Positions 22,504 through 55,328 of a stretch of 64,000 bases of DNA are shown here, one piece after another. Positions within the stretch are counted from its first letter, which is position 1. The number at the start of each line of letters is the position of its first letter. The stretch covers positions 62,001 through 126,000 of the forward strand of contig CAIQOJ010000054.1 in the NCBI GenBank assembly GCA_903873395.1, read 5' to 3'. Source of the DNA: an uncultured Acidimicrobiaceae bacterium. GTDB taxonomy: Bacteria > Actinomycetota > Acidimicrobiia > Acidimicrobiales > RAAP-2. Position numbers and translations under genes: made by a program. Below the pieces are notes generated by a model, which saw only the letters and a program-made list of their open reading frames with translations, was not told where the DNA came from and searched no databases.

Positions 22504-23547
22504 TCAGCAGTAGGCCCTGATACCCGCACTGCCCAGCGGACGGGTTCCGACGACGCAGACACCCAGCCAGGCCGTAGAGATTCCAAATACCGGCTGGCGG
22601 AGGTCGGACCCGGCCATCGAGCCCAGGAACGGCGCTGACCCGAAGGCGAACACTCCACCGTCGGCACCTGAAAGCCAGTAGCCGCCCCCCAAGGGATCGG
22701 CGGCAATGCCGGTCATCGGAGCATTCAGGTCGGTTCCGGCCATTGCGCCGGCAAAGGTGGCGTCCCCGAAGGAGAACACCCCGCCGTCAGCCCCCACCAG
22801 CCAGTAGCCACCTCCATCAGGAGTAGCTGCCATGCCGACGATGGGCTCGTTCAACGGCTGACCACCCATCGACCCGAAGAAGCCTGCCGTTCCGAACGCG
22901 AAGACCCCGCCGTCGGAATCGACCGTCCAGTAGCCACCTCCGTCGGGCGTGGCCGCAATGGCCACCGGCATGCCGTTAGTACCAGCACCACCGGTGGCTG
23001 AAGACTCATCCCCGTGCAAGACAGCGTCACCAAACGCGGCGACACTCCCCATCCCGCTGAGGTCCGAGTTGAGTACCCAATACCCCAGCCCTGACGATGT
23101 TGAGGCCATCGACACCGAGTCGGGCCACAGATCCGCCCCACCGGTGTTCGATGCCGTGCGGTCACCGTGGGAGACGGCGGCCCCATAGGCCGTGATCGCT
23201 CCGGTGTAGGCATTGAGGATCCAGTAGCCGGTTCCATTAGGCATCGTGGCCATGGACCAGCACTCGCCGTAAGGCATGTCTCGATCAGTCGTGTTGGGAG
23301 GACAGGTCGCAGGATCCGAAGCGGCCGAGCCCAGGAAGTTCGACCCGAACGAGAAGATGCCGCCGTCACCGGCCACCAATCGATATCCCGGTTCAGCGAT
23401 GTGAGGCTGGGTCGCGGCCCCTACGGAGCCGACGCCTCCTACAACTGCACCCACAGCCGCTCCGATGACCACCGCCAGGGCCGGCACTCCCCACCGTCGC
23501 GCTCGACTACCTGTCCGCCGTCCGGCAACCCGTTGAGAACGCACCAT
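22504..23547 (-). CDS. secreted repeat protein with DGGVFSFGDA-type repeats
   Basis: TPDGGGYWLVGADGGVFSFGDATFAGAMAGTDLNAPMTGIA repeats; signal-like N-terminus. Confidence 0.75.
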   Translation of the reverse strand: MVRSQRVAGRRTGSRARRWGVPALAVVIGAAVGAVVGGVGSVGAATQPHIAEPGYRLVAGDGGIFSFGSNFLGSAASDPATCPPNTTDRDMPYGECWSMATMPNGTGYWILNAYTGAITAYGAAVSHGDRTASNTGGADLWPDSVSMASTSSGLGYWVLNSDLSGMGSVAAFGDAVLHGDESSATGGAGTNGMPVAIAATPDGGGYWTVDSDGGVFAFGTAGFFGSMGGQPLNEPIVGMAATPDGGGYWLVGADGGVFSFGDATFAGAMAGTDLNAPMTGIAADPLGGGYWLSGADGGVFAFGSAPFLGSMAGSDLRQPVFGISTAWLGVCVVGTRPLGSAGIRAYC

Positions 23548-23651
23548 GACTGTCAACCTCCGCTCGCCGTGACCATCGTGACCTGGCAAGTGTTGCGCGG
23601 ACGCCCCCATCCCGACAGGGTCGAAAGTCATGGAGTCGCTACGCTTCCCAT

Positions 23652-24968
23652 ATGCAGCACATCTCTTCGCCAGACTCCTCTGGCCGCATGCCACGCCCAG
23701 CACCGCGCACGGGCCGCCTCAGGCCCTTCACGCTGCTTCTGTCCACCATCGCCGCAGCGGGACTATTGGCAAGTTGTTCGACCTCAAGTGCATCCTCATC
23801 GCCAACCACCAGCGGAACTCAATCTGGCGCATCCACGGTCGCCGACTTCTATACGCCCCCACAGCCCTTGCCCAAAGCAGCACCCGGCACACTGATTCGC
23901 TCAACCGTGGTGCACCAGGTGCCCGGCGTGCCCCAAGGGGCTGTTGTCTGGCGCATCCTCTTTCACTCGACCACCATCACGGGAGCAGATCAGGCCGAAT
24001 CCGGCTACGTCATCGCACCGTCGTCCGGCGACCACGTGCCGTCGGGCGGGCGCCCAGTGATCGCCTGGGCACACGGAACGAGCGGCTTTGCTGCTCCATG
24101 TGCTCCTTCGCTCTTCACGAGTTCCGGGGGAGGCACAGGGCCGTATCTCCTACCTGGGCTCGACCAGTACATGTCGGCCGGCTACGTCGTCGCTGCCGCT
24201 GACTACCAAGGCCTCGGTGTTTCCGCTGGTGTCCACCCCTACCTGGTGGGATCCAGTGAGGGCCGCGCCGTGCTCGATGCCACCCGGGCGACACGGCATC
24301 TCCTGGCGTCGACTACGGCCAACAAGATCCTGATCTACGGCCATTCCCAAGGCGGGCACGCCGCCCTTTTCGCCGGCGAAATGGCCCCGACCTACGCGCC
24401 TGACCTCAACGTGCTCGGTGTGGTGGCAGCGGCACCAGCCACCGGGCTGAGCACCCTGATCTCGATCATCGGCACGCCCGCCGGAACAGGATTCCTGCCC
24501 TTCTCGATCCCCACTGCCTGGTCGTGGACGCAGACCTACTCCGACCTCCCGGCCACCGAGGTGTTCACGCCCGCTGGCCGTGCCTTCGCCCAGGCCGAGG
24601 TCACCAACGGTTGTTCTGAGCAGGTCTCGACTGCCATCGCCGAGAAGAAGCTGACACCCCAGGGAATGTTCGTCGCCACGGCGGAAACCGATCCCGTAGT
24701 CATGGAACACGCCAAACGCAACGACCCGGGCAGCGTGCGAACCACCGTGCCCATGCTCATCGTCCAAGGCTCGGCTGACCAGACCGTTCCCCCACCCCTC
24801 ACCGACGCGTTCGTCCAGGGCATCGCCTGCCCCGCGGGAGACCAGGTGAACTACATCCGAGAACCCGGGGCGACGCACGGGAGTGTGGTGTTCGTCGCCG
24901 CTCCCGCCATCGCGTCGTGGATGAACATGCGCGTCGCTGGCGAGGCCGCCACCTCGACGTGCCCTTGA
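23652..24968 (+). CDS. secretory lipase-like alpha/beta hydrolase, lipoprotein
   Basis: Lipobox LLASC; VIAWAHGTSG; ILIYGHSQGGHAALFAGE. Confidence 0.8.
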   Translation: MQHISSPDSSGRMPRPAPRTGRLRPFTLLLSTIAAAGLLASCSTSSASSSPTTSGTQSGASTVADFYTPPQPLPKAAPGTLIRSTVVHQVPGVPQGAVVWRILFHSTTITGADQAESGYVIAPSSGDHVPSGGRPVIAWAHGTSGFAAPCAPSLFTSSGGGTGPYLLPGLDQYMSAGYVVAAADYQGLGVSAGVHPYLVGSSEGRAVLDATRATRHLLASTTANKILIYGHSQGGHAALFAGEMAPTYAPDLNVLGVVAAAPATGLSTLISIIGTPAGTGFLPFSIPTAWSWTQTYSDLPATEVFTPAGRAFAQAEVTNGCSEQVSTAIAEKKLTPQGMFVATAETDPVVMEHAKRNDPGSVRTTVPMLIVQGSADQTVPPPLTDAFVQGIACPAGDQVNYIREPGATHGSVVFVAAPAIASWMNMRVAGEAATSTCP

Positions 24969-26073: not shown

Positions 26074-27054
26074 TCAGGCCCCTTCGAAGATCCGTCGAGG
26101 GTTGTCGACGAGCATGGTGGTGATCTGCTCTTCGGTCACCCCGTGGTCGATGAGGTAGGGAAGAACCTCTTGGGCAATGTGCAGGTAGTGCCATTGCGGC
26201 AAGAACGCCAGCACGTTGGGGTCAATCCAGTCGATGTAGCAGGCAGCATCGTGGGCCAGCACCATCCGTTCTGCGTAGCCCCGGCGACACATCTCCACGA
26301 CAACGTCGGCCCGCGCCTCGAAGGTGGTGGCCAGGTTGATGCCGAATCGGTCCATGCCCAACCAGAAACCTGCTTCGGCCAAGGCCGACAGATGGTCAGC
26401 ATCGGTGGAGTCTCCGCTGTGTCCCAGAACGATGGCTGAGGGAGCAACACCCTCTTCGGCCATCACACGTTGGACGACGAGACCCTGATGGGTTTCGGGG
26501 TGGGTGTGCACGGTGATCGGCGTGCCGGTCACCAGGTGCGTCTTAGCCACGGCCCGCATAATCCGCTCGACGCCAGGCGTCAGGCCAGGTTCGTCGATTG
26601 CACACTTGAGCATGCCCGCACGCACCCCGGTGCCAGCGATCCCCTCCATGATGTCGCCCACAAACAGGTCGACCATGGGATCGGGTACCTCGACGCCAAG
26701 GGCCGCTTCGAGAGCCGGGCCACGGTGGTGGAAGAAGAACGGCACGTCGCCATACGTGTAGCAGCCTGTCGCCACCACGATGTGGAGATCAGGCACCGCT
26801 TCGGCCACCCGCTGGATCCGAGGGATATAGCGACCGAGGCCGACCACGGTCGGATCAACGATGGTTCGCACACCCGACGATGCCAGGGTCGTCAGCTTGG
26901 CAACGGCGTCGGCGATCCGCTCGTCCTCATCACCCCATTCATCGGGGTAGTTCTGCTGCACGTCGGGGGTGAGCACGAAGACGTGCTCGTGCATATACGT
27001 CCGGCCCAACTCGGCCGTGTCCACCGGCCCACGAACGGTCTCCACAGTCGGCAT
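26074..27054 (-). CDS. phosphotriesterase-family amidohydrolase
   Basis: MPTVETVRGPVDTAELGRTYMHEHVFV; TIVDPTVVGLGR; VLGHSGDSTDADHLSALAEAGFWLGMDRFG; VDNPRRIFE. Confidence 0.85.
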   Translation of the reverse strand: MPTVETVRGPVDTAELGRTYMHEHVFVLTPDVQQNYPDEWGDEDERIADAVAKLTTLASSGVRTIVDPTVVGLGRYIPRIQRVAEAVPDLHIVVATGCYTYGDVPFFFHHRGPALEAALGVEVPDPMVDLFVGDIMEGIAGTGVRAGMLKCAIDEPGLTPGVERIMRAVAKTHLVTGTPITVHTHPETHQGLVVQRVMAEEGVAPSAIVLGHSGDSTDADHLSALAEAGFWLGMDRFGINLATTFEARADVVVEMCRRGYAERMVLAHDAACYIDWIDPNVLAFLPQWHYLHIAQEVLPYLIDHGVTEEQITTMLVDNPRRIFEGA

Positions 27055-27219
27055 TGCACTCCCCCACGTACTCAGACCGGCGATGCCCGATGGCTGCCGG
27101 CGACCAGGCCGATGGTAGTGGTAGCACTCCCGCCAAGCAGGCCCCAGCATGCGGGACCAGATTGCCTACTTCAGCCAATCAGGACCTGACGACCAGGACC
27201 TGGTGCTCAGGCGATGGCT

Positions 27220-27927
27220 TCAGGAGTTGAAGGAATCAGCCAAGGAAGGAATCAGCCAATCGATCTCGGGATCGATCACCACCACAACCTCATCGTCGAC
27301 CCCCTTACTTCCAGCAAGGTCCGAGGCGCTGATGCCATCAAGGCGATCGAACCGGACGTCAGTCCATGTGCGGCCGTCGCCAATGATGACCCCATCGACC
27401 ACAAAGTGGGCCACGGGCACCACGCCAGCGGGATCCTCATCCACCACATCGCCTTCACTCAGTCGACGCACTCGCATGACCAGCGGCCCGGATGCAGATG
27501 TGGACGGATCGCCGGCAGCATGAGGTAGGCAACCCATGACGATGGTTGCCTCCATGCCGGCCTGCTTGTGGACGTACTGCTTCTGGAAGTCCTCGCGGTT
27601 CTGCATGGCGAAAAAAGAGGCCCGGCTGGGGTAGCGCACGATGCCGATGCGGTCCCAGGCGACACCCTCGTTGTGCTGCTCGATCACGTCGCCGAATAGG
27701 GCAACCGGAGCGCCGAGGTCATTGAGCACTTCTGTTGGGGCGTACAGATCATCTGCTTCTTTGCCAGAAACAGTCGGACCGCCCGCTTCGCCATAGTCGG
27801 CGACTTCCTTGTACTTCATGAGATTGAGCATCCAGACAGCACCGTCATCAGTTGCGTCGAGATGCATCCACCGACCAGCTGTCTCAACGTTGATCGTGCC
27901 AAAGGGGTACTCGAGAGGGTTAGCCAT
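27220..27927 (-). CDS. hypothetical protein, DUF1330-like
   Basis: AVWMLNLMKYKEVADYGEAGG...VALFGDVIEQHN...WDRIGIVRYPSRASFFAMQNREDFQ. Confidence 0.55.
   Translation of the reverse strand: MANPLEYPFGTINVETAGRWMHLDATDDGAVWMLNLMKYKEVADYGEAGGPTVSGKEADDLYAPTEVLNDLGAPVALFGDVIEQHNEGVAWDRIGIVRYPSRASFFAMQNREDFQKQYVHKQAGMEATIVMGCLPHAAGDPSTSASGPLVMRVRRLSEGDVVDEDPAGVVPVAHFVVDGVIIGDGRTWTDVRFDRLDGISASDLAGSKGVDDEVVVVIDPEIDWLIPSLADSFNS
27230..27261. repeat. 16-nt direct repeat x2 in the 3' coding end of the DUF1330-like gene
   Basis: aaggaatcagccaagg / aaggaatcagccaatc. Confidence 0.75.
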
Positions 27928-28048: not shown

Positions 28049-28864
28049 CTAGTTGCCGAACTTCGGGTTGCGCAGTTGATTCAAACGGGAGTTGCGATTG
28101 TGCACACGACCCAAGGTGCTTTGGTGGGTGAGGATCCAGAACTCGCCTGAACGCACGGCATAGGCCACGCGACCGGCTACGTCGGCAGGTGGCAACGGCG
28201 TCGTGCCCATGAGTTCGGCGATCTGGTCGATGGGAATCGAGGGCGGCTGGCGATATCCCAGTTCGCTCGGTGCATTACGTGTCGACTCGAAGATCTTGGT
28301 ATCCACCAGTTCCGGGCAGAGGCACGAGACGCCCACCGGCGTACCTTCAAGCTCCATGAACAGCGACTCCGACAGGCCTACGACGGCGTACTTCGTCGGG
28401 TGGTAGGGGCCAAGAGCAGGCGACGACGTCAGTCCGGCTTCAGACGCCGTGTTCACGACGTGACCTTCACCCTGTTCGAGCATGACAGGCACAAAGGCGC
28501 TCACGCCGTAGGCCACGCCCATCAGGTTCACGCCAACGACCCAGTCCCATTCGGCTGGCGTCGTCTTGTGGTTCGGTCGCCCGTTAGCCACTCCGGCGTT
28601 GTTGCAGAGCAGGTGGACGGCGCCATACGCCTCGAGCGCCCGGTCACGTAGGTCTGCCACCTGGTTCGAGTCGGCAACGTCGCACACTACGGCGTGCACC
28701 TTGCCTCCGGCCGCCTCGATGCGGCCTGCCTCGCGCTCAAGAGCCTCACGCTCGATGTCGGCCATGACTACCGACATCCCCTCGTCGAGGAACCGCTCGG
28801 TCAGGGCAAGACCGATGCCCGATGCCGCTCCGGTGACGACTGCTGTCCGTCCGTCAAGCTCCAT
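28049..28864 (-). CDS. short-chain dehydrogenase/reductase (SDR)
   Basis: MELDGRTAVVTGAASGIGLALT; LLCNNAGVANG; YHPTKYAVVGL. Confidence 0.92.
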   Translation of the reverse strand: MELDGRTAVVTGAASGIGLALTERFLDEGMSVVMADIEREALEREAGRIEAAGGKVHAVVCDVADSNQVADLRDRALEAYGAVHLLCNNAGVANGRPNHKTTPAEWDWVVGVNLMGVAYGVSAFVPVMLEQGEGHVVNTASEAGLTSSPALGPYHPTKYAVVGLSESLFMELEGTPVGVSCLCPELVDTKIFESTRNAPSELGYRQPPSIPIDQIAELMGTTPLPPADVAGRVAYAVRSGEFWILTHQSTLGRVHNRNSRLNQLRNPKFGN

Positions 28865-28980: not shown

Positions 28981-29847
28981 CTACAACTTGGCGATGACTT
29001 GTTCACCGAAGGCGGCGAGCGAGGTCTCGGGGTCGCTCCAGAACACAAAGGCCGGAATGACGATCCGATCGACTCCCATGTCGGCGAGCGCACGAGCTTC
29101 GTCGAGCTGATCGGGGCCGAACACCCCGTTGCCACCACTCGTGACCTCGACCGAACCCGGGTCCCGGCCCGCCTCGGTGGCGGTCGTCCGCATAAGTTCG
29201 ATCAGATCGGCCAACTTTCGGCCCCCCACCGCCGGGAAGAATCCATCTCCGATCCGTCCTGCCCGCCGAGCTGCAGCCTCCGAGTGCCCACCAATATGGA
29301 TGGGCACCGAGCCGCCGACCGGCCCTGGCTTAGAGAAGCAGTTGGTGAACGACGTAAAAGTGCCATCGAACGTGGCATCGCCGTCCGACCACAGTTCCCG
29401 GAGCACTTCGATCGACTCTTCGGTGCGAGCGGCTCGATCATCGAATGACACGCCGATGGCTTCGAATTCCTCTTTGAGCCATCCGATGCCCACGCCCAGA
29501 TCCACGCGACCGCCCGACAGATGGTCGAGGGTTGCGACCTCTTTGGCCAAGATGACCGGGTTCCGCTGAGGAAGGATCAGGATCCCCGTGGCCAAGCGGA
29601 TGGTCGAGGTGGCTGCGGCCAGATACGAGAGCCAGATCAGAGGATCAGGAACGGCCGAGTCATCGCCTCCTGGCATACGTCCTGACGGATCGTAGGGATA
29701 GGTCGACTCGTAGCCCGCCGGGACCACGGGGTGCTCGACGGTCCACAGCGAATCGAACCCAGCGGCCTCGGCCGCTCGAGCCATAACCGCTGCTGGCCCG
29801 GGGTCGGCAAAGGGGCCCGTGTTTGCAAAGACGATGCCGAACTTCAT
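28981..29847 (-). CDS. LLM-class (F420-dependent type) flavin oxidoreductase
   Basis: MKFGIVFANTGPFADPG...LATGILILPQRNPVILAKEVATLDHLSGGRVDLGVGIGWLKEEFEA. Confidence 0.92.
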   Translation of the reverse strand: MKFGIVFANTGPFADPGPAAVMARAAEAAGFDSLWTVEHPVVPAGYESTYPYDPSGRMPGGDDSAVPDPLIWLSYLAAATSTIRLATGILILPQRNPVILAKEVATLDHLSGGRVDLGVGIGWLKEEFEAIGVSFDDRAARTEESIEVLRELWSDGDATFDGTFTSFTNCFSKPGPVGGSVPIHIGGHSEAAARRAGRIGDGFFPAVGGRKLADLIELMRTTATEAGRDPGSVEVTSGGNGVFGPDQLDEARALADMGVDRIVIPAFVFWSDPETSLAAFGEQVIAKL

Positions 29848-29914: not shown

Positions 29915-31015
29915 TCAGGACTGCGCCGTGAACATGGTGCAGACGGTACCGACGGTGGGGTCGACCCGACCAGCCAGATACGTGCGGAATACCTCGATGA
30001 TGGCTTCCGGGCCGGCGTGGGGGTCGAGCACTAGCCAACTCGCCGCCCAACTGGAGTAGTCGGACCAAGCCACGGCCATCACCTCGGCCAAGCGCTCTGG
30101 GCCCCAGTCCTTCGAACGTTTGGCGATCTGGCTGGGTGCGAACAAGAACGCAGGGGCCGGACCCGGTCGGTCGCCCGAGGCACTGGTGGCCTGGTGATCC
30201 CAGTGGGTGTCCCCGACGATCATCGAATGAGCCAGTGTTCCCTCGAGTCGGCGGTGCACAGCACTCACGACGTCCTGGTTTCCTGAGACATCGACCAGTA
30301 CGGAGGGCACCTGGTCGAGTGTCGCTACATCGTCATAGACGACCAGATCGTCGTAGACGCCCAGCGAACGACAGAACTCGAGATTGCCAGGTGACGTCAC
30401 CCCCACGGTCCGTAAGCCTCGGGCGTGGATGAGTGATGCAGCCCCCAAGGCGGTCTTGGCCGAGGCGCTGGTGATGATGACCTGCTCGGCGCCAAAGTCG
30501 TCGTTGTCCTCCAGGAAATCGCTGATGACGAACGACGTGAAGAAGAGCGGATACAACAGCATCTGCACCTCTTCGCGATCTGGCCGGTACACCGGATCGC
30601 CGGCACAGCGCATGTACCCGTTGTAGGCACCGGCCATCTCGCTCCGGTGGGGTGCGACGTCGACAACCCGTGTCGCGTCAGCCTGACCTACATCGATCAC
30701 CAACTCGGTAGACATCGGCAAGAAGCCGAACAGGCGCTCCCCCACTGCGAGATCGGCTGAACGGGTCTCGACCACATCGGCGAAGCCCCAGGCCGGCACA
30801 CGGCCCCACTGAGTCTCACCGCCCTCACCGGCTTCAGCGGCCGGAAAGAAGTCCCAGTAGCGGAGCATGTCACCGATGACGGCATAGGAGACATTGTTCG
30901 AAGAGAACCCAAACCGATCGATGCGCAGCCGGGCTTGGCCGTCTTCGAGTGGTGCTGAGGGAAGGTCGACGATTCTCCAGTTGGTGAAGTCGCTACGGGA
31001 GACCTCGATGTCCAT
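29915..31015 (-). CDS. DUF2855 family protein
   Basis: FGFSSNNVSYAVIGDMLRYWDFFPA...WGRVPAWGFADV...GAEQVIITSASAKTALGAASL. Confidence 0.75.
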   Translation of the reverse strand: MDIEVSRSDFTNWRIVDLPSAPLEDGQARLRIDRFGFSSNNVSYAVIGDMLRYWDFFPAAEAGEGGETQWGRVPAWGFADVVETRSADLAVGERLFGFLPMSTELVIDVGQADATRVVDVAPHRSEMAGAYNGYMRCAGDPVYRPDREEVQMLLYPLFFTSFVISDFLEDNDDFGAEQVIITSASAKTALGAASLIHARGLRTVGVTSPGNLEFCRSLGVYDDLVVYDDVATLDQVPSVLVDVSGNQDVVSAVHRRLEGTLAHSMIVGDTHWDHQATSASGDRPGPAPAFLFAPSQIAKRSKDWGPERLAEVMAVAWSDYSSWAASWLVLDPHAGPEAIIEVFRTYLAGRVDPTVGTVCTMFTAQS

Positions 31016-31387: not shown

Positions 31388-32587
31388 ATGACCGAGTCCC
31401 ATCCCGCCCTCCGCCTCGACGAGGTCACCGAACTGATCGCCGAGGCTCTGCGCCCGGCCGAACCCGGCCGCGGATCGGTGGGTCTCGAAGTTGAATGGAT
31501 CGTGATCGATCGGGCTGCACCAGCTCGTCCGGTACCGGGCGACGAAGTCATGGCCGCCGCGGACGGAGCCCTCCCGGCTGGAGGATCGCTCGGCGTTGAG
31601 CCGGGAGGTCAGCTGGAACTCTCCACCCTTCGACTGGACGGCCCGACGGAGGCGTTGGCAGCGGCGGCCATCGATGAAGCTGAACTGGATCGACGTATGG
31701 CATCGGCTGGCTTGCTCCTGCTCGACACCGGCCTCGACCCATTTCGGCCACCGATTCGATCCAGCCAACTCGCTCGCTACCGGGCCATGGAGTCGGCGTT
31801 CGATGCCCGGGGTCCCGCCGGCCGGCTCATGATGTGCTCCACTGCCTCGCTCCAGGTCAACGTCGACCTGGGAGCTGATCCGATGGCCACCTGGAAGAAG
31901 GCGGGCGTCTTGGCCCCTGTGCTCGCCGCCGCATTCGCCAACTCGCCACGGTGGTCAGCCGCAGGAACCGTCCTTGCCTCGGCCAGAGCCGCTATCTGGG
32001 CGGCCATCGATCCATCTCGCACCCGCCCGGTCACCACCACCAGTTTGACGGCCTGGGTCGACTACGCACTCGACGCAGAGGTCCTGTTCGTCGAGCGAGG
32101 TTCAGGTGCTGTGCCCGTGGCTGGACCGTTCACGTTGCGGGACTGGATCGTCCGAGGGGATGCGCTGGGTGGACCTGACTCACGCGACGTGGCGACTCAC
32201 CTGACGACGCTCTTCCCGCCGGTCAGGCCGAAGGGGTGGATCGAATGCCGGTTCCTCGATGCGCTGCCCACCGGCGATCGTGTCGTTGCCGTACATGCTC
32301 TTGTGGCGCTCCTCGGCGACGATGTCCCTCTCGACAGGATTGCGGCTGCCTGCTCGATCGATGGCGATCCGTGGCGTCTGGTTCCGGGCGGCACGGCTTC
32401 CCCAGTGATGGCTGCAGCAGTCGAGCGGTGTCTCGACCTAGCCGTCGATGCACTCGAGCGAGGAAATACCGGGGCCTCGGGCTTGGTGCAGTCCTGGATT
32501 GATCGCCGCCATGCCGAGCGCTGGAGCATCCATGCACCCTCGGCCGACCTAATGTCCCTTCACCACGTCGAACAGGAGAACCCCTGA
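31388..32587 (+). CDS. glutamate-cysteine ligase, EgtA/GshA type (GCS2 superfamily)
   Basis: VGLEVEWIVID, LGVEPGGQLELST, GLDPFRPP, LMMCSTASLQVNVDLG, AAFANSP. Confidence 0.85.
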   Translation: MTESHPALRLDEVTELIAEALRPAEPGRGSVGLEVEWIVIDRAAPARPVPGDEVMAAADGALPAGGSLGVEPGGQLELSTLRLDGPTEALAAAAIDEAELDRRMASAGLLLLDTGLDPFRPPIRSSQLARYRAMESAFDARGPAGRLMMCSTASLQVNVDLGADPMATWKKAGVLAPVLAAAFANSPRWSAAGTVLASARAAIWAAIDPSRTRPVTTTSLTAWVDYALDAEVLFVERGSGAVPVAGPFTLRDWIVRGDALGGPDSRDVATHLTTLFPPVRPKGWIECRFLDALPTGDRVVAVHALVALLGDDVPLDRIAAACSIDGDPWRLVPGGTASPVMAAAVERCLDLAVDALERGNTGASGLVQSWIDRRHAERWSIHAPSADLMSLHHVEQENP

Positions 32588-33759
32588 TGGACCGCGTCAC
32601 CTTCTATGCCATGCCTGGATCGCTCTACTCCGCCAAAGCCCGCTCCTACCTGCAGACCCACGGGATTCCCTTTGACGAGCAGGCTCCCGGCGGCGCCCGC
32701 TACAACGACGTGGTCGTGCCGGCCATCGGACGTTGGATCATCCCGGTCCTGGAGACCGCCGACGGCACGCTTATCCAGGATTCGATCGACATCATGGACT
32801 TCCTCGACGCCACCGAGGCCCCTGAGCGGTCGGCCTACCCAGAGGGTTCTGTGCTTCGATCCGTCGGCCACGTCCTCGAACTCTTCGCAGGCGAGCGCCT
32901 GCTCCGTCCGGCCATGCATTACCGGTGGGACTTCGACGAGATGAACGTGCCATTTCTGACCAAGGACTTCTCGGCGGCGTTGGCCGTGGGGGCAGACGAC
33001 GACACCCGTGATGCCACATTCGCGTTCGCCAGTGACCGCATGCGTTCCGCCAAGGAAGCCTTCGGTGTCAGCGACGAACTCGTCCCAGAGATCGAGCGCT
33101 CCTACCTCGAGTTCCTCGACCTACTCGATGCACACCTGGCCCACGCCCCGTACATCCTCGGTGGACGCCCGACGATTGCCGACCACGCCTTCATGGGGGC
33201 CCTCTACGCCCACCTGGCCCGTGACCCCTACCCGTCGGTACTCATGAAGCAGCGGGCGCAACGCGTCTGGCGCTGGACCGAGCGCATGCGGACCTCCGAT
33301 CTTGATGCCAGCGAGTACGTGAACCCCGTCGCTGACCTCTTTGCCGACGACGATCTCCCCGAGACCTTGCATGCACTGCTCACCTATGTGGGCGAGGAGT
33401 ACCTCGACGAGGCCGTGGCCCAAGTGGCCGCCGTCGACCAATGGCTGACCGAGCACCCTGATGTGACTGACGGCGAGGTGGTCTTGGGCAAGCCCAATCG
33501 ACGGTTCAGCGGGATCACCACGTTCAACTGGCGCGGGCAGCCCATGACAGTGGCAGTCGTCCCCTACCGCCTCTTCTTGATCAAGCGCCTCCAGGATGCA
33601 GTGGCTGCAGCCTCGTCTGCAGACCAGGAGTCCATCCGTCAGGTGTTCACTCGAGCAGGGCTCGACCCGTTGCTCGACATCCGGCCGCAGCGCTGGGTCG
33701 AGCGAGTCGACAATCGCGAGGTCTGGGGTCCGCTCGGCGAGGCAGTGCTTCCCGCCTGA
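32587..33759 (+). CDS. glutathione S-transferase-fold protein with C-terminal extension
   Basis: MDRVTFYAMPGSLYSAKARSYLQTHGIPFDEQ...PVLETADGTLIQDSIDIMDFLD...PYILGGRPTIADHAFMGALYAHL; TGATG overlap with upstream gene. Confidence 0.8.
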   Translation: MDRVTFYAMPGSLYSAKARSYLQTHGIPFDEQAPGGARYNDVVVPAIGRWIIPVLETADGTLIQDSIDIMDFLDATEAPERSAYPEGSVLRSVGHVLELFAGERLLRPAMHYRWDFDEMNVPFLTKDFSAALAVGADDDTRDATFAFASDRMRSAKEAFGVSDELVPEIERSYLEFLDLLDAHLAHAPYILGGRPTIADHAFMGALYAHLARDPYPSVLMKQRAQRVWRWTERMRTSDLDASEYVNPVADLFADDDLPETLHALLTYVGEEYLDEAVAQVAAVDQWLTEHPDVTDGEVVLGKPNRRFSGITTFNWRGQPMTVAVVPYRLFLIKRLQDAVAAASSADQESIRQVFTRAGLDPLLDIRPQRWVERVDNREVWGPLGEAVLPA

Positions 33760-33826
33760 TCGGATCCCCTGGGCGGAGGACACAACCAACCCCGTTGCCT
33801 GAAACCAGGCCTTCCCTGCTGGCTCG

Positions 33827-34774
33827 TTACCGGCTTGCCGATTTGCCTTCCAGCCAGTCGATGACCACCAGGTCCGGGCGGGTGCCGGAGAGTTCGGTCA
33901 GCTGACGCAGACCGGTGGGGCTGGTCACGTTGACCTCCGAGAGTCGTCCATCGATGACATCGATCCCCACGAAAGCCAGGCCATCGGCCCGCAATCTGGG
34001 AGCCATGGCCTCGATGATCCGGTGATCTGCGTCGTCGAGACCTACGACCTCGGCTGTCCCGCCGAGGACCAGGTTGGCTCGGAACTCTCCTGGTGCAGGA
34101 CGGCGAAGCACCGCTCCCAGTGGTTCGCCGTCGAGCAACAGGATCCTTCGATCGCCATCGATGACGCCCGGAAGGAACTCCTGGGCCATCACGGGGCGTC
34201 GGCCTCCATCGGTGATGTGGTCGACGATCATGGCAGCGGAGGGATCGTCAGGCTCGAGACGGACGACACCATGGCCACCATGGCCATCGAGGGGCTTGAG
34301 TACGGCTCCATCGAACCGAGCGGCGAAGGCCACGAGCCGGGAACGGTCGGCGCTCACCAGATGGGCGGGCATGACATCGGGAAACCTGCAGGCATAGAGC
34401 TTCTCGTTGGCTTCTCTCAGCCCGCGAGGATCATTGACCACCAACGTCTGCCCTCGAGCGTGCTCGAGGAGCAGTGTCATGGCCAGGTAAGCCGAGTCGA
34501 CCGGGGGGTCAGACCGAACGAGCACGACATCGAACTCGGCCAGCGGTCGTGCCATGGGAGTGCCCGAGGACACCACGAGTCCATCTGGACTCCCAGCGAC
34601 CGCCGTCACCTCAGCCCCGACGATGCCATCAGCCAGCCACAGATCTCCCGGCGTGCACCAGAAGGAGGAGTGACTGCGCTCGAGGGCGGCGGACAAGAGG
34701 GCGATCGAGGTGTCTCCCCGTTGCTCGAGGGTGTCGAGGGGATCCATGACCACGAGCAACTCCATCGGCGTCAC
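33827..34774 (-). CDS. gshB: glutathione synthetase (ATP-grasp)
   Basis: MTPMELLVVMDPLDTLEQRGDTSIALLSAALERSHS...DPPVDSAYLAMTLLLEHA...VVNDPRGLREANEKLYACRFPDVMPAHLVS...VLKPLDGHGGHGV...FVGIDVIDGRLSEVNVTSPTGLRQL. Confidence 0.9.
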   Translation of the reverse strand: MTPMELLVVMDPLDTLEQRGDTSIALLSAALERSHSSFWCTPGDLWLADGIVGAEVTAVAGSPDGLVVSSGTPMARPLAEFDVVLVRSDPPVDSAYLAMTLLLEHARGQTLVVNDPRGLREANEKLYACRFPDVMPAHLVSADRSRLVAFAARFDGAVLKPLDGHGGHGVVRLEPDDPSAAMIVDHITDGGRRPVMAQEFLPGVIDGDRRILLLDGEPLGAVLRRPAPGEFRANLVLGGTAEVVGLDDADHRIIEAMAPRLRADGLAFVGIDVIDGRLSEVNVTSPTGLRQLTELSGTRPDLVVIDWLEGKSASR

Positions 34775-35520
34775 TCGTCAGGCTGATCGGACGTCGAACC
34801 TGCCACGATGGCCCGGTAGCGCTCGAACCGATGCACGAACTCATCGGTCTGGGTAGCCGTCCACCAGACAGCGGATCCGCCCGACAGATCACGACAGCGC
34901 TCGAGGTGGTCGGCCACACGGTGGTCGAGATGACCGGTGAACCCCAGGGCAGCGAGCCCTTCGAGACGGGCGTAGACGGGGACGACTACAGCCTCGGCCA
35001 AGGTCGGACCTGACCCAGCCAACCACGAGCCATCGTGCAGCCACTGCCCCATGCGCCCCAGGGCTGCGGTCAACGCGGCGCTCGACCGCTCGATGGCGTC
35101 GGTTCGGGTGCCGTAATACACGCCGATCATCGGAGGGAACACCTCTCGGTCGATCCAGGTCGCTCGTTCGAGGACACGAGCGCGGCCCACAGCATCACCA
35201 GGCAGAAGAGGTGATGCGCTACGGCTGTCTTCAAGCCATTCGAGAATGGGGAGGGAATCAGCCCGGTACTCCGTCCCGATCCGCACCAAGGGAATCTCGC
35301 CTTTGGGCGAGTGGGCAACGAACTCCTCGGGCACGACGAACCCCTTGGGTCTGGCTGCCGTGGGAGGTACGTCAACTAGGTCATGGGCGATCTCCCGCTG
35401 AGCCAACGCGAACGAGACCCGCACCGAGTACGGACAGATCCAGTGACCGAACAACGTGACGTCGTTTGGTCCGCCCCGCTCTCCCGCCCGTTCCGTGGCG
35501 CTCGTGCTCGACGTGCTCAC
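34771..35520 (-). CDS. glutathione S-transferase, CPYS-motif
   Basis: VTLFGHWICPYSVRVSFALAQREIAHDLVDV...GEIPLVRIGTEYRADSLPILEWLED; 4-nt overlap with gshB start and with upstream GST stop. Confidence 0.85.
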   Translation of the reverse strand: MSTSSTSATERAGERGGPNDVTLFGHWICPYSVRVSFALAQREIAHDLVDVPPTAARPKGFVVPEEFVAHSPKGEIPLVRIGTEYRADSLPILEWLEDSRSASPLLPGDAVGRARVLERATWIDREVFPPMIGVYYGTRTDAIERSSAALTAALGRMGQWLHDGSWLAGSGPTLAEAVVVPVYARLEGLAALGFTGHLDHRVADHLERCRDLSGGSAVWWTATQTDEFVHRFERYRAIVAGSTSDQPDE

Positions 35521-36566
35521 CCGAACAGCCTGTCGCATCCGGTCCCCGCCAGCAGGGAATCCACCGTCTCCCGTGCCGTGCCGTCGAGTGCGTGGTAGCC
35601 CTCGCGCAGCCAAGTCAGGCATTTCACCTGATAGCCGAAGGGCGCCTGGCGGAAGGGAAGCCCGTCGATCTCACAGAACACTTCATCTGCGCCTGCATCT
35701 CGGGCCTCAGCATTGGCCAGGAGAAATGGGACGTAGGTCCGGCCGATCTCCTCCAACAAGCCGGGAACCGTCTGAGCCAGCGAGTCTGCTCGATCCCAAC
35801 CCTCATCGCCTGCGACTGGTAGCCAGCTCAAATCATCGGTGGCCATGACCCAGTTGACCAGGCGTGGAGCTCGCTCGACGGCGACGCGAGCAGACTCGGG
35901 ATCCCAGATCACCAGCTGGCTGAGCTGACCGAACAGGCCGAAATCTCCTCGTCCGGGGCGGTGGCCCAGCACGAAAGGCGTCGTTGCCAGATGTGAGTCG
36001 AGCAGATCGAGCAGGCGCTCATAGGACGACTCGATGACCGGACGGTTCTCCTCGGTGGAGCCGACCATGGCCATCCGGCTCTGCTGGCGGTCAATGATGA
36101 ACTCCCGTGACCTCGACAGGAGTTCGGGATCCATCTGCTGATCCAGCGTGAGGGGAAGCTGACTCCCCGCCTTGTCGACGCAAGCGTCATAGAACCATCG
36201 ATAGTGGTACATGGCCTTGGTCACCCACTCGTCGGCATAGTCCTCGACGAGAGCATCGATGAAGGCCACGGCCGGATCAACGGGAACGATCGACCGATCG
36301 TGGGTCATGGCTTCGAGGCGCACGATCTGAGGAGATGAGTCGACCATGGCCTCGGGGTAGGCACCCTGCTCGTCGGGCCAACTTATGGCCGGAAGAAGAA
36401 GCACGCTCGGCTTCACCAGATCGTCCCACTTGGAATCCCGGAGCACCCATCGGAAGGGGAGCCTCCGATAGCGAAGCACGGCCCGCATCTTGAGCGAATA
36501 CGGCGAGCCGTAGGCGCCGGCTAGCTGCAGCGGGTGTTCGGCATCAGGCATGCGGTCAGGGCTCAT
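35517..36566 (-). CDS. glutathione S-transferase-fold protein with C-terminal extension
   Basis: LQLAGAYGSPYSLKMRAVLRYRRLPFRWV...FVLGHRPGRGDFGLFGQLSQL; domain layout like the 32587-33759 protein. Confidence 0.78.
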   Translation of the reverse strand: MSPDRMPDAEHPLQLAGAYGSPYSLKMRAVLRYRRLPFRWVLRDSKWDDLVKPSVLLLPAISWPDEQGAYPEAMVDSSPQIVRLEAMTHDRSIVPVDPAVAFIDALVEDYADEWVTKAMYHYRWFYDACVDKAGSQLPLTLDQQMDPELLSRSREFIIDRQQSRMAMVGSTEENRPVIESSYERLLDLLDSHLATTPFVLGHRPGRGDFGLFGQLSQLVIWDPESARVAVERAPRLVNWVMATDDLSWLPVAGDEGWDRADSLAQTVPGLLEEIGRTYVPFLLANAEARDAGADEVFCEIDGLPFRQAPFGYQVKCLTWLREGYHALDGTARETVDSLLAGTGCDRLFG

Positions 36567-36834: not shown

Positions 36835-38367
36835 TCAATCTTGTTCATCAGCCAAGGGGTCTGCCACAACCCTGGGGCCATGCCCTTCGAGTGCCACAGC
36901 CGCCACCACGGCACCGATGACCACCAGTAGGCCGGCCAGGAAGAACGCCAGCCGGTAGCCCGATGTCATCGCTTCAGCGACCCCATGTCCTGAAGCCACC
37001 AGGTTGCGAGTGCGCCCCGCAGCCAGCGCGCTCAAAATGGCCAACCCCAGGGCGGCCGCCATCTGCATGGACACATTGACGATGCCCGAACCCAGGCCGG
37101 CATCGGCCACCGGCACGTCGGTCATGGCGATGGTGAGGAGCGGGGCGAACGCTGTACCCGCTCCAAGGCCGAGCAACAGGAAGGCCGGGAACAAGGTGAC
37201 CCAATAGCTCGACGTTGTCGTGATGGTCGTCAGCCACAGCAAGCCCATCGCCCCGAGAATCATGCCGGGCAGGAGGACGCGCTTGTCGCCATACCGATCG
37301 ACCAGGCGGGCAGTGATACCCGACGAGAGGATTCCCATGGTGACGGACATCGGCAGAAATGCCAGTCCGGTCTGCACGGGACCGAAACCAAGCACCCCTT
37401 CGAGGTAGAGCGCTCCCAGGAAGAACGTCGAGAACATTCCCGTCGCCAACATCCCCCGGATCACACTGGAGCGGGTCAAGGTGGAGATGCGGAGCACCCG
37501 TATGGGCATGATCGGATTGGCCAGCCGTGACTCGATGATGGCGAAGGCCACGAGCATGGCGACAGACGCCCCCACGAACAAGAAGGTGTGGGGAGACAGC
37601 CATCCAAAGCGCGTGGCTGTCGAGATTCCGTAGATGCCGAGCATGAGCGACACGGTGATGAGTATCGAGCCGGTGATGTCGACCCCGTTGGCGATCCCCA
37701 GACCCTTGTTCTCCACGATCAGCGCCCGGCCGGCCACCACGGTGAAGATCCCGATTGGCACGTTGATGAAGAAGATCCAGTGCCAACTCAGTGCTTGCGT
37801 CAACACTCCTCCCACCAGGAGGCCGATCGACCCACCTCCCACGGCCACGAAGATGTACGCGCTCATGGCTCGGGATCGCTCCGAGGCAAGGGGGAACTCG
37901 GTCACGATGATGGCGATGATGACCGAGGAAGAAAAGGCGCCACCGATTCCCTGCAAGAACCGCCCGGTCACCAGCAGGGCCTGACTGTGAGCCAATCCGC
38001 ACATCACCGAGGACAAGGTGAAGAGGGTGATTCCGCCCAAGAAGACCTTGCGACGGCCGATGAGGTCACCGAGTCGGCCGGCCAGCAAGAGGAAGCTTCC
38101 GAACGTGATCAGGTAGGCGTCCACCACCCAGGTCAGCCCGGAAGGACTGAAGTGGAGATCCTGCTGAATGGCCGGCAGCGCGACATTCACGATCGACGAA
38201 TCGAGCGAGTTCATGAACATGGCCAGGCAGACCACCACGAGTGCCCACCATCGGAGCCGGTCCGAACGCGTCGAGACAGGAACGGAAGTGGTGGACACGT
38301 CCCCTAGTTCATCGGCCTGAACGCAATTCAGCAAATCGGCGCCCGACGGCATTCCTTGTGCCCTCAC
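36835..38367 (-). CDS. MFS transporter, DHA2 (14-TM) family
   Basis: MFMNSLDSSIVNVALPAIQQDLHFSPSGLTWVVDAYLITFGSFLLLAGRLGDLIGRRKVFL. Confidence 0.92.
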   Translation of the reverse strand: MRAQGMPSGADLLNCVQADELGDVSTTSVPVSTRSDRLRWWALVVVCLAMFMNSLDSSIVNVALPAIQQDLHFSPSGLTWVVDAYLITFGSFLLLAGRLGDLIGRRKVFLGGITLFTLSSVMCGLAHSQALLVTGRFLQGIGGAFSSSVIIAIIVTEFPLASERSRAMSAYIFVAVGGGSIGLLVGGVLTQALSWHWIFFINVPIGIFTVVAGRALIVENKGLGIANGVDITGSILITVSLMLGIYGISTATRFGWLSPHTFLFVGASVAMLVAFAIIESRLANPIMPIRVLRISTLTRSSVIRGMLATGMFSTFFLGALYLEGVLGFGPVQTGLAFLPMSVTMGILSSGITARLVDRYGDKRVLLPGMILGAMGLLWLTTITTTSSYWVTLFPAFLLLGLGAGTAFAPLLTIAMTDVPVADAGLGSGIVNVSMQMAAALGLAILSALAAGRTRNLVASGHGVAEAMTSGYRLAFFLAGLLVVIGAVVAAVALEGHGPRVVADPLADEQD

Positions 38368-41046: not shown

Positions 41047-41176
41047 CCTGGGTGCCGGCTCTCCCTTTCATCACGCAGAGTGGTAAATTGCTCACTTTGA
41101 GCGCATTTATCTCAAGTGAGTGGCCGTCTTGGCCGATGACCCATCCGATTCCCTTCGCGACGGATGGAGACCCACC

Positions 41177-42406
41177 ATGACAAAATGGCGCTGGAAAGAC
41201 TCGGTAGGCGCAACCTTGGCCGGACTCGTGGCCTTGGCTTCCCTGGCCCTGTGCGGGTTCCAGGCCACCCCGGCGGGGGCTGCCACGGCGGCTCCGTCGT
41301 CCATCACCACGTCAATGTGGCTGGCCACAGAGACGGGCGCAGTCGAGGCGTACGGGGTGGCCGCCCTCGGTTCGGCGCCGGGACCGCTCAACCGACCCAT
41401 CGTGGGGAACGTTGCCACCCACGACCGAGCTGGCTACTGGTTGGTAGCTGCAGACGGCGGCATCTTCTCCTTCGGCGACGCCCATTTCTACGGTTCGACC
41501 GGTGGTCTTCACCTGAACCAGCCCATCGTCGGCCTGGCTTCGACTCCCGATGATCGGGGGTATTGGTTGGTAGCCGCAGATGGCGGCATCTTCTCCTTCG
41601 GCGACGCCCATTTCTACGGTTCGACCGGTGGTCTTCACCTGAACAAGCCCATCGTTGGTATGGCATCCATGCCCGACGGCAGCGGCTACATGCTGGTGGC
41701 CTCCGACGGTGGCATCTTCTGCTTCGGTTCGTCTTCGTTCCACGGTTCGACGGGAAACATCGTCCTCTCCCAACCCATCGTGTCAGCAGCACCCACCACT
41801 GACGGTCTCGGGTACTGGCTGGTGGCAGCCGACGGCGGCATCTTCGCCTTCGGAAGCGCCCACTTCTACGGGTCCGGTGCCAAATCGTCGATCGAGCCAT
41901 TCCAGCGAATTGTGCCCACCTACGATGGCCAGGGCTATTGGCTGGTCCGCCAGGACGGAACTGCGCTGGCCTTCGGCGTTGCTGTGTCCCGGGCCCTTCC
42001 CACACAGGCACTCCTCCTCCACCCGGTGACACCAGGCGACAAGGCGGTTCTCTTCGCCTTTGCTCAGGTGGGCAAGCCCTACATCTGGGGTGGCAACGGA
42101 CCCGTGGGTTACGACTGCTCGGGACTGGCCCTAGCGTCGTGGGTGCACGGTGCTGGCACCTCCTTCGCCCGGGTGGCCAACGATCAGTTCCACACCGCCG
42201 GCGTGTCGGTTGCCTTCAGTTCGCTACGCGCTGGAGACCTTGTGTTCTGGGGTTCCAACCAGGCCGACTGGACGTCGGTGTACCACGCGGGCATCTACGT
42301 CGGCGGCAATCGCATCGTCGAGTCGACGGGGAATCATGTGCAGATCAATGCCATCAACCAGTGGGGACTGGCTGACGTGATGAGTTACGGCCGCCGCCCC
42401 AAGTAG
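41177..42406 (+). CDS. secreted NlpC/P60 peptidase with N-terminal DGGIFSFGDA beta-propeller-like repeats
   Basis: Signal-like MTKWRWKDSVGATLAGLVALASLALCGFQATPAGA; repeats YWLVAADGGIFSFGDAHFYGSTGGLHLNxPIVG; C-terminal VGKPYIWGGNGPVGYDCSGLALASW, AGDLVFWG, HAGIYVGGNRIVEST. Confidence 0.88.
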   Translation: MTKWRWKDSVGATLAGLVALASLALCGFQATPAGAATAAPSSITTSMWLATETGAVEAYGVAALGSAPGPLNRPIVGNVATHDRAGYWLVAADGGIFSFGDAHFYGSTGGLHLNQPIVGLASTPDDRGYWLVAADGGIFSFGDAHFYGSTGGLHLNKPIVGMASMPDGSGYMLVASDGGIFCFGSSSFHGSTGNIVLSQPIVSAAPTTDGLGYWLVAADGGIFAFGSAHFYGSGAKSSIEPFQRIVPTYDGQGYWLVRQDGTALAFGVAVSRALPTQALLLHPVTPGDKAVLFAFAQVGKPYIWGGNGPVGYDCSGLALASWVHGAGTSFARVANDQFHTAGVSVAFSSLRAGDLVFWGSNQADWTSVYHAGIYVGGNRIVESTGNHVQINAINQWGLADVMSYGRRPK

Positions 42407-42489: not shown

Positions 42490-42543
42490 CCTACCCCGTG
42501 TCCGTCACCTACCCCGAGTCCGCCACCTACCCCGTGTCCGTCA
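42490..42543. repeat. 18-nt tandem repeat x3 ending in the stop codon of the GGDEF-EAL gene
   Basis: cctaccccgtgtccgtca / cctaccccgagtccgcca / cctaccccgtgtccgtca. Confidence 0.95.
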
Positions 42544-44901
42544 GAGGCCGTGCGGCAGAACAAGCCCCGTTCCGGCATCGTGCATCGATCGGCCCTGTGG
42601 CGAACCGGTCACCGTCCCTGGTGCATCCGATGGACCCGGTAGTTCGACGGCACCAAGTTGGGACCAACCCGGAACGTCCCGGGGAGGACATGGCCCGATG
42701 GCCGCCGGATCCGTCGGCATCGCATAGAGAAACCCCTGGGCGTAGCGGCAGCCCAGCCTGGCCAACTCGGTGGCCTGTGCGTGGCGCTCGATGCCCTCGG
42801 CCACCACTCGAAGGCCGAGTGACGCCCCAAGACCGATCACCGCTCTGACGATGGCCCGGTCGTCTGATGCCGTCTCCAGCTGATCAACAAAGCTGCGATC
42901 CACCTTCAAGGTCTCCACGGGAAGACGCTTGAGGTAAGACAGGGAGGAGTACCCGGTGCCGAAGTCATCGATGGCGAGATGGACCCCCAACTCACGCAAG
43001 GCTTCGAGAGTCAACGTGGCCGCCCGGGGATCTCGCAACAATGCCCCTTCGGTGATCTCGAGCCAGAGCTGGTCGGCGGGAAGACCTGATGACGCCAGCG
43101 CATCGGCCACCAGCTCGACAAACCCCGGTTCGCCGAGCTGCTTGGGTGACACGTTTACCGACATGTCCATGGGGGTCCTACGTCCGGCGAGCGCTGCTTC
43201 TGCCTCGACCCATCGCCCGCCCTGTCGACAAGCTTCGCGGAGTACGAAGTTTCCCATCGATGTCATCAAGCCACACTCTTCGGCCATCTCGACGAACTGA
43301 GAAGGTGGCAGCAGTCCTCGAGTGGGATGCTGCCAGCGCACCAGTGCTTCGGTGCCGCAGACCGTGAGGTCCGCCAGGTCGACAATCGGCTGGTAGTGCA
43401 GGACGAGTTGAGACTCCTTGATCGCCCGATGCAACTCGTTCTGGGTGCGCAGGTTGCGTCCCGCATCAGCAGATGCTGCTTCTTGGTACACGGCGAACTG
43501 CCCCGGACCGCTCCGTTTGGCTTCGTACATGGCGATGTCCGCACAGCGCATGAGCGCGGAGGGCAGCATGCGCTCCGAGGACGACACGGCTATACCGATA
43601 CTGGTCGTCACGTACTGCTCGAAGTCGGGTTCGACAATGGGCATGGCCAGCGCACCTCGAATGCGAGACACGATCTCGACCACGTCGTCAGGGTCGGTGA
43701 CCTCGCAGAGGATGGTGAACTCGTCACCACCAAACCGGGCCAGGATGTCGTCGGCCCGAAGAGCACCTCGAAGGCGCTGGGCAACTCCTCTCAGCAAGCG
43801 GTCTCCGGCATCGTGGCCCAAGACGTCATTGACCATCTTGAAGCGATCCAGGTCGAGGAACATCAGTGCGACGTGGTAGCCGTCGTGTTCCGAACGCACG
43901 ATGGCGTCGGCGAGCTCGGTTGCGAACAGAGTCCGATTGGGCAACCCGGTCAACGTGTCGGTCACCGCAGATCGTGCCAGCTCCTCACGAAGCTCATAGC
44001 GCTCGGTGATGTCTTCGATCTGACCGATCATGAATAGGGGCTCTCCGGCATTGTCCCGCACGATCGAACCGTGGACCGCCGCCCAGACAAAATGCCCATC
44101 GGCGTGGATGAACCGCTTCTCGTGTCGGAACCGGTCGAGCTCTCCCGCCAACAATCGCTCGATCATTTTGCGATTCTCGTCCCAATCTTCAGGCAGAGTG
44201 AAGTACTTCACGGTCTGACCAACCATGTCTTCGACCTGATAGCCGAGGATGTCGGCGTAGGCCTGGTTGACCTGGAGGAAGCGACCGTCGACACCGAGTC
44301 GAGAGATGCCGATCGGCGCCCCCTCGATGAGTTGTGCCAACGAAGTTGCCGACGCCACCATCTCCTCTTCGACGGCGTCCATGCGCTCACGAACCCAGGC
44401 CAAGAGCTCACCGAGGACCACGCTGACGGGGATGACGAAGATCGCCCCGCCGAGGCCCTGTCCATTCGACCAACCGTTGGTGATGAAGATCGGGGCCAGA
44501 TAGGCGACCACGATCAGGGGGAGAAACTTGACCGTGGTCCATCGAGATTGACTCATGCCCATGAGCGTGCAGACCAGAGCGAAACTCACCCCGTAGGTGA
44601 ATCCGTTCGGATCCAAGTACACGTACGCAAGGTCGATGACCACGAAGGCGGCGGGAACCATCCAGAGCAGTGATCTGCGGGACTGGTTTCCCCAGTCGAC
44701 AGGCAGGGAGAGCGCGCCGATGGCCACCGTGACGACCCCAAGCGTCAACGCGGCCGACCGGGACGCGTGGATCGGTTCCACCAACGCCGAGAAAACGAAA
44801 AGCACACCCGCGGTGATCCAAGACCACGCGATGATCCGTCCTGCCAGTGCTCGATGCACGGCATCCACGCTGCGATGGGAAATTAGGTCGATGCGGTCCA
44901 C
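42541..44901 (-). CDS. PAS-GGDEF-EAL membrane protein (c-di-GMP turnover)
   Basis: TLTGLPNRTLF, ARFGGDEFTIL, GTEALVRWQHPTRG, AIDDFGTGYSSLSYLKRLPVETLKVDRSFV; likely GTG start at 44901 preceded by GAGGAGGGG. Confidence 0.92.
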   Translation of the reverse strand: MDRIDLISHRSVDAVHRALAGRIIAWSWITAGVLFVFSALVEPIHASRSAALTLGVVTVAIGALSLPVDWGNQSRRSLLWMVPAAFVVIDLAYVYLDPNGFTYGVSFALVCTLMGMSQSRWTTVKFLPLIVVAYLAPIFITNGWSNGQGLGGAIFVIPVSVVLGELLAWVRERMDAVEEEMVASATSLAQLIEGAPIGISRLGVDGRFLQVNQAYADILGYQVEDMVGQTVKYFTLPEDWDENRKMIERLLAGELDRFRHEKRFIHADGHFVWAAVHGSIVRDNAGEPLFMIGQIEDITERYELREELARSAVTDTLTGLPNRTLFATELADAIVRSEHDGYHVALMFLDLDRFKMVNDVLGHDAGDRLLRGVAQRLRGALRADDILARFGGDEFTILCEVTDPDDVVEIVSRIRGALAMPIVEPDFEQYVTTSIGIAVSSSERMLPSALMRCADIAMYEAKRSGPGQFAVYQEAASADAGRNLRTQNELHRAIKESQLVLHYQPIVDLADLTVCGTEALVRWQHPTRGLLPPSQFVEMAEECGLMTSMGNFVLREACRQGGRWVEAEAALAGRRTPMDMSVNVSPKQLGEPGFVELVADALASSGLPADQLWLEITEGALLRDPRAATLTLEALRELGVHLAIDDFGTGYSSLSYLKRLPVETLKVDRSFVDQLETASDDRAIVRAVIGLGASLGLRVVAEGIERHAQATELARLGCRYAQGFLYAMPTDPAAIGPCPPRDVPGWSQLGAVELPGPSDAPGTVTGSPQGRSMHDAGTGLVLPHGL

Positions 44902-44971
44902 TGCCCCTCCTCTCGACAATCTAGATACCGCCACGTAGGGCATTTGGTCCCGAACGGGTCCGATCAGCAAT

Positions 44972-44991
44972 GTTGGGACCAAGGTCCCAAC
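44972..44991. promoter_or_regulatory. 20-bp palindrome, putative operator
   Basis: gttgggacc-aa-ggtcccaac in the divergent spacer between GGDEF-EAL and oxidoreductase genes. Confidence 0.5.
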
Positions 44992-45103
44992 CTGGTCCGG
45001 GTGGGCCCAATGGGGCGCATGGCAGCATCCCTTCAGCACGAATACCAGTGGTCGTGCCTAGTGTGAGCCCGTCGGCAATTCCGTGCCGACCTGAGGAGGT
45101 GTC

Positions 45104-55181: not shown

Positions 55182-55328
55182 ACTGTTCCTTCCGCCGTAC
55201 TCACTGTCCCACACCTGCTTCCACTTGTACCGTCGCGCCGATCTCGAGCGTTGGGCGAAGGATGATGTGGCGAAAATGAGGACGAAGGTCCATGGCTTGG
55301 ACCGCGGGGTGCCGTTAGGTTCTGGCTC

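Follow-up and report, generated by a model that had tools for sequence, protein, structure and literature searches.

A 64-kb stretch of DNA from an uncultured member of the Acidimicrobiia (hereafter, the window) contains a block of genes, centred on positions 31388-36566, that appears from its sequence to make glutathione (GSH), a thiol that such organisms normally lack, for use by three adjacent glutathione S-transferases (GSTs). We think it probable that this block is a chromosomal and self-contained module for the supply and use of GSH. The source genome is a 2.82-Mb Acidimicrobiia metagenome-assembled genome (MAG) that is 94% complete (G000), and the window lies within a 127-kb contig; the closest named relatives of the host are uncultured Acidimicrobiaceae/Ilumatobacteraceae MAGs. 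We compared the block with 14 genomes of the genus, 197 of the class and 398 of the phylum Actinomycetota, and deletions and losses in relatives were read from MAG assemblies. Because the contig also carries a transfer-messenger RNA and the synteny of the block is kept throughout the genus, we place the module on the chromosome and not on a plasmid. The GC content of the module equals that of the window, with no sign of recent import.

On the forward strand, a gene for an EgtA-like glutamate-cysteine ligase (GCS2, 31388-32587; PF04107, 147 bits), which we propose to be a dedicated GshA, is followed by GSTa (32587-33759; PF13417/PF13410), which encodes a 390-amino-acid GST with a C-terminal extension. 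The stop codon of GCS2 and the start codon of GSTa meet in the junction CCCCTGATGGACC (TGATG), which confirms base for base the coupling reported in a preliminary description of this DNA. The reverse strand carries, in this order, GSTc (35517-36566; PF13410/PF13417), GSTb (34771-35520; PF13409/PF13417) and the glutathione synthase gene gshB (33827-34774). GSTc, the first gene of the operon, encodes a 349-amino-acid protein with a C-terminal extension. Both gene borders are GTGA overlaps of 4 nt (35517-35520 and 34771-34774), exactly as had been described for a convergent operon running from a GST through a CPYS-type GST to gshB. The open reading frame of GSTb as called spans 34771-35622 (minus strand) and begins with an ATG at 35622; because a GTG at 35520 overlaps the stop codon of GSTc, we take GTG 35520 to be the most likely start. 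The forward and reverse transcription units run towards each other and end 67 bp apart. GST_N domains scored above the Pfam cut-off in GSTa, GSTb and GSTc, and the GST_N/GST_C domains, together with the conserved GSH-site residues of GSTc, place these proteins in the GST superfamily. Elsewhere in the genus, genes of the block recur in synteny at 54-74% identity, and purifying selection acts on gshB and GCS2 (ratio of nonsynonymous to synonymous substitution rates, dN/dS, ~0.2-0.3 by NG86, which is near saturation). Together, the identity, synteny and dN/dS values indicate that the arrangement is more than chance.

GshB exceeded both equivalog cut-offs for glutathione synthase (TIGR01380, 309.6 against 299.05 bits; PRK05246, 330 against 272 bits) and contains the GSH-S_N and GSH-S_ATP domains (103 and 197 bits). 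Its residues 5-293 align with Escherichia coli GshB (1gsa), and the C-terminal D...E.N stretch and a loop Arg are conserved. On these grounds, the enzyme is predicted to ligate Gly to gamma-Glu-Cys. The eight module GshBs form one clade (support 96/93), which groups with the GshBs of Gordonia and of the actinobacterial genome G544 with moderate support (92/85), apart from the sampled proteobacterial GshBs. Canonical gshB is present in only 3 of the 197 class genomes (including G010, at 295 bits) and 2 of the 398 phylum genomes. We also considered GSH-synthetase-like proteins of the PRK12458 type in other Acidimicrobiia (L143, L144 and L023). These form a separate clade (100/100), the L144 copy adjoins a QEGLA-motif protein, and such proteins probably act outside GSH synthesis. 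A GCS2-GshB pair might also make a gamma-Glu-Cys-X thiol other than GSH, with a residue other than Gly, for use by the three GSTs. The separate actinobacterial clade of GshB and the lack of close solved relatives for the GSTa and GSTc families would be in keeping with such a product; however, the equivalog scores, the full-length alignment to the E. coli enzyme and the production of GSH by Rhodococcus AD45, which has the same sort of gene pair (as stated where PMC6849523 cites Johnson 2009), make it very improbable.

Considering that EgtA supplies gamma-Glu-Cys for ergothioneine, we examined whether GCS2 might be an ordinary EgtA whose proximity to gshB and the GSTs is incidental. The two share an enzyme family and a presumed reaction (Glu + Cys to gamma-Glu-Cys), EgtA is the best-scoring NCBIfam model for GCS2, and EPGGQLEL, E34/E36 and E286-x-R288 of GCS2 are invariant with EgtA and with a Gordonia plasmid ligase. 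However, the score (TIGR03444, 254.6 bits) is below the EgtA cut-off of 370.8. GCS2 is the sole GCS2 in the host genome, which does contain egtB and egtD; this ergothioneine locus (egtB-egtD with DUF427; contig C22, L140:7867-10626) is separate from the block and has no egtA, and no EgtC scored above cut-off in the host genome, so that GCS2 lacks a genomic link to egtB, egtC or egtD. The host EgtB scored 459 bits against the EgtB structures of Chloracidobacterium and 164 bits against mycobacterial EgtB. Chloracidobacterium EgtB prefers cysteine, whereas the mycobacterial enzyme prefers gamma-Glu-Cys (PMC10903977). Since the host EgtB is of the cysteine-using type, its ergothioneine locus would need no gamma-Glu-Cys. 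Relatives that have egtA carry an egtB just ~33% identical to that of the host. Within the genus, 12 of 14 genomes have egtD, but module-type GCS2 is confined to those with gshB (four of five; the fifth, G009, holds a GCS2 remnant), and the GCS2s scanned in G006 and G007 belong to a different subfamily (PRK13517). Among the other EgtA-like GCS2 genes in class and actinomycete records, 22 of 24 adjoin egtB and none adjoins gshB; conversely, nine gshB-linked GCS2 genes (those of the window, G004, G005, G010, G213, CALJDK and the Gordonia plasmid, and two in G544) never adjoin egtB. The six module copies from Acidimicrobiia group in a single clade (98/98), which the tree does not place relative to EgtA or the Gordonia/G544 copies. 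Thus, five tests (locus, EgtB type, distribution, neighbours and clade) agree in saying that GCS2 is no ergothioneine EgtA, and that explanation is nearly refuted. The cut-offs, the separate clade and the linkage to gshB strongly support the proposal that an EgtA-type enzyme was recruited and that GCS2 feeds GshB. For annotation of EgtA-like ligases in general, these data suggest a simple rule, in which an egtB neighbour is distinguished from a gshB neighbour.

Of the 14 genomes of the genus, 12 have a homologue of mycothiol ligase (MshC, TIGR03447), each scoring under the curated cut-off; in the host it scored 418 bits against a cut-off of 485.1, with a CysS-type paralogue at 278 bits. GSH is therefore probably an additional thiol in a lineage whose other thiols appear to be mycothiol and ergothioneine. 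Every check from the preliminary description that could be computed favoured its inference of an EgtA-type enzyme feeding GshB.

The block is conserved in a common order in G004, G005 and G009, namely MFS-GSTc-GSTb-gshB / GSTa-(GCS2)-DUF2855-LLM-SDR (in G005, from two contigs). The locus of G010 is rearranged (SDR-GSTc-GSTb-gshB-GCS2, with a 235-amino-acid protein and LLM), and G213, from another family, has DUF2855-gshB-GCS2. All five gshB-containing genomes of the genus have three or four GST_N_3 domains, and the nine others have none to two; the chance of such full separation is 1 in 2002 under independence, which these genomes do not meet. GSTc is present in 13 of the 197 class genomes, including each of the three that have canonical gshB. 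Of GCS2, the remnant in G009 (L021:11797-12103) retains only ~26 residues from the N terminus and ~15 from the C terminus, and its C-terminal end still enters GSTa through TGATG. As it occupies the same syntenic place, we conclude that GCS2 was most likely deleted in G009, through an internal deletion of ~1.1 kb that left the neighbouring gshB and GSTs intact. G011 lacks GSTc, gshB, GCS2 and DUF2855, and G012 additionally lacks GSTb and LLM; both retain GSTa, SDR, the 235-amino-acid protein and a hydrolase. When MshC and EgtD were used to build a tree, G011 and G012 came out as sisters (95/93) within a clade whose other genomes bear the module (100/97), a position that favours loss. In G006, G013 and G001, the MFS flank is present, with nothing of the block. 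These assemblies show GCS2, gshB, GSTc and DUF2855 apparently being lost in some relatives. The preliminary view of a dedicated GSH/GST module is supported, with the amendment that the GSTs are not strictly dependent on the GSH genes, as relatives keep GSTa or GSTc in their absence.

The three GSTs differ at one position: GSTa (SLYS) and GSTc (SPYS) have Ser where GSTb (CPYS) has Cys. In general, Ser-type GSTs conjugate GSH, and Cys-type GSTs often remove or exchange it; GSTb is thus a candidate thiol-transferase or deglutathionylase. In GSTc, Ser20, Pro58 (the cis-Pro position) and Asp75-Ser76 are invariant in 33 homologues from several phyla. Among solved structures in the PDB, the AlphaFold2 model of GSTc (predicted local distance difference test score, pLDDT, 93) came closest to StyI from the styrene plasmid of Gordonia, a similarity confined to the fold (TM 0.45/0.60), and LigF was among the other fold matches. 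Comparison with IsoI/StyI by hhalign gave probabilities of 18% for GSTc and 50% for GSTa, and GSTa matched the IsoI model NF049950 weakly. The similarity of these GSTs to IsoI/StyI and to LigE/F/G was at superfamily level, and we did not assign them to either group. Profile matches of GSTb in the PDB were to tau, zeta and omega GSTs. A look at plasmid-borne GSTc homologues gave one weak Pseudomonas match and no further context.

Conserved partner genes lie next to GCS2 on the reverse strand. The nearest encodes a DUF2855 protein (29915-31015; PF11017), a Pfam family without a described function, on which our literature search found nothing. Its AlphaFold2 model (pLDDT 88) matched PTGR1-like and double-bond reductases in Foldseek (TM ~0.5-0.6), and the protein is predicted to be an NADPH-dependent MDR-type reductase. 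DUF2855 adjoins gshB-GCS2 in G213 and GSTc in several distant genomes. An apparent DUF2855-GSTc fusion in L044 was not counted, as the join is out of the DUF2855 frame and probably reflects a MAG frameshift. An LLM-class (F420/FMN) oxidoreductase (28981-29847; TIGR03619, 272.9 bits, above cut-off) and an SDR oxidoreductase (28049-28864; PF00106) follow, both placed by synteny as well. The nearest solved relatives of the SDR include LigD-type C-alpha dehydrogenases of lignin ether cleavage. The 235-amino-acid protein (27220-27927), which is kept in four module loci, matched no Pfam family.

In the mechanism that we propose, GCS2, as an EgtA-derived ligase, would join Glu and Cys, and GshB would add Gly to yield GSH. 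Translational coupling ties these biosynthetic genes to the GSTs, GCS2 to GSTa on one strand and gshB to GSTc-GSTb on the other. Under a predicted division of labour, GSTa and GSTc would attach GSH to an electrophilic intermediate, GSTb would strip the GSH off by thiol transfer, and DUF2855 (MDR fold), LLM and SDR may process enone, ketone or alcohol forms. The gene set fits a pathway with an enone- or epoxide-like electrophilic intermediate. The identities of the genes, their coupling, synteny and co-occurrence, the clades and the purifying selection are read directly from sequence, and the formation of GSH, the roles of the single GSTs, the catabolic function and the class of substrate are inferred from them.

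Several observations weigh against the block being such a module. Of the 13 class genomes with GSTc, 10 lack canonical gshB, among them the complete genomes of IMCC26256 (G042, L069), which also has GSTb, and of G065; these two lack EgtA as well. GSTa is under purifying selection in G011 and G012 (dN/dS ~0.16 between the two), both of which are without GSH genes. The GSTs are no close relatives of IsoI/StyI, a glutathione-disulfide reductase was not among the genes identified in the block, and it is solely the neighbouring genes that suggest a catabolic role. The GSTs might therefore use another or an imported thiol, with the GSH genes as a dispensable add-on, as GSTc in G042 and G065 and the selection on GSTa after loss of gshB and GCS2 would suggest. 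However, GST number follows gshB within the genus, translational coupling links each GSH gene to a GST, and both gshB and GCS2 are themselves under purifying selection, and we regard this explanation as unlikely. We give slightly more credence, though still little, to a general capacity for GSH-based redox reactions and detoxification that serves no single dedicated pathway and has its oxidoreductase neighbours by coincidence. Detoxification is common among GSTs, the gene set differs between genomes, and no known catabolic operon is recognisable. Nevertheless, in several genomes LLM, SDR, the 235-amino-acid protein and DUF2855 accompany the GSTs, the first three still do so after the rearrangement in G010, DUF2855 is also next to gshB in the distant G213, and the actinobacterial precedents that we found are pathway-bound.

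One tentative suggestion, more doubtful than not, is that after deletion of GCS2 and gshB in some lineages of the genus, a GST-centred pathway kept working on GSH imported from the community around the cell or on another thiol. If this holds, making GSH would here be a shared good that lineages can dispense with, and at least some of the GST families in the block would have no tie to GSH made by their own cell. The graded loci (complete; without an intact GCS2; without any GSH gene but still with one or two GSTs) make the survival of GSTs beyond their thiol supply testable.

The architecture itself is already known from Rhodococcus AD45 and Gordonia plasmids. The iso cluster of AD45 contains gshA (37% identical to Mycobacterium tuberculosis EgtA), gshB1/2 and isoI/J (PMC4676930), and in actinobacterial isoprene degraders GSH is thought to be specific to isoprene metabolism, alongside mycothiol (PMC6849523). 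As in AD45 (PMC4676930, PMC6849523), an EgtA-like gshA and a gshB are packed with GSTs and oxidoreductases in an actinobacterium that makes, or in the present case probably makes, mycothiol, and the block shares the hallmark of iso- and sty-type clusters, these two genes close to at least two GST genes. The iso cluster of AD45 is plasmid-borne and includes a multicomponent isoprene monooxygenase, the GSTs IsoI/IsoJ, a CoA transferase and an aldehyde dehydrogenase; the block is chromosomal, has other GST families and carries DUF2855, LLM and SDR instead. No isoprene-type monooxygenase or CoA transferase was present among the block neighbours examined, and no Pfam family of an epoxide-forming monooxygenase (IsoABCDEF or StyAB) was found among the open reading frames scanned in 19.8-45.0 kb, LLM being the only oxidoreductase of potential relevance. 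The styrene plasmid pGCWB2 of Gordonia rubripertincta CWB2 likewise carries adjoining, oppositely oriented genes for GshB and an EgtA-like ligase, with two GSTs and an SDR close by (PMC8552685). Its ligase scores similarly against the EgtA model (268.9 bits, compared with 254.6 for the window GCS2) but falls in a separate clade; its GshB is 40% identical, its GSTs are remote relatives, and its StyAB is absent from the block. G544 (L211, L212) has two gshB+GCS2 pairs, one adjoining a StyA-type monooxygenase, a pyridine-nucleotide disulfide oxidoreductase and an integrase, and the other a C26 peptidase and MFS transporters.

The beta-aryl-ether pathway of Sphingobium uses the SDR LigD, the conjugating GSTs LigE/F and the Cys-type GST LigG. 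The block resembles it in having an SDR with C-alpha dehydrogenases among its relatives, two putatively conjugating GSTs and one Cys-type GST, but its GSTs have no close sequence relation to LigE/F/G, and the likeness is a resemblance only. Our literature search on Acidimicrobiia with glutathione and mycothiol found nothing on this module. The novelty lies in the lineage (a different class), in the location on a chromosome, in the families of GST and in the partner set of DUF2855, LLM and SDR. GSH is rare in Actinomycetota, and the locus would widen the range of pathway-bound GSH, so far a matter of a few Mycobacteriales with plasmids, to the chromosomes of uncultured Acidimicrobiia, and would link it to other GST families and to DUF2855.

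The flanks of the block are formed by a phosphotriesterase/lactonase-family hydrolase (26074-27150, minus strand; PF02126), which is syntenic and kept in module-reduced genomes, and upstream by an MFS transporter (36835-38367, minus strand; PF07690) that is also found in module-less genomes. The 235-amino-acid protein is present at most module loci and is kept where the GSH genes are lost. Further out, related NlpC/P60-like proteins in inverted orientation (22504-23703, minus strand, and 41120-42406, plus strand) flank the conserved block on both sides. Cyclic-di-GMP signalling proteins with GGDEF, EAL and PAS domains are encoded at 42541-45039, 53661-56039 and 57032-58699, all within the window.

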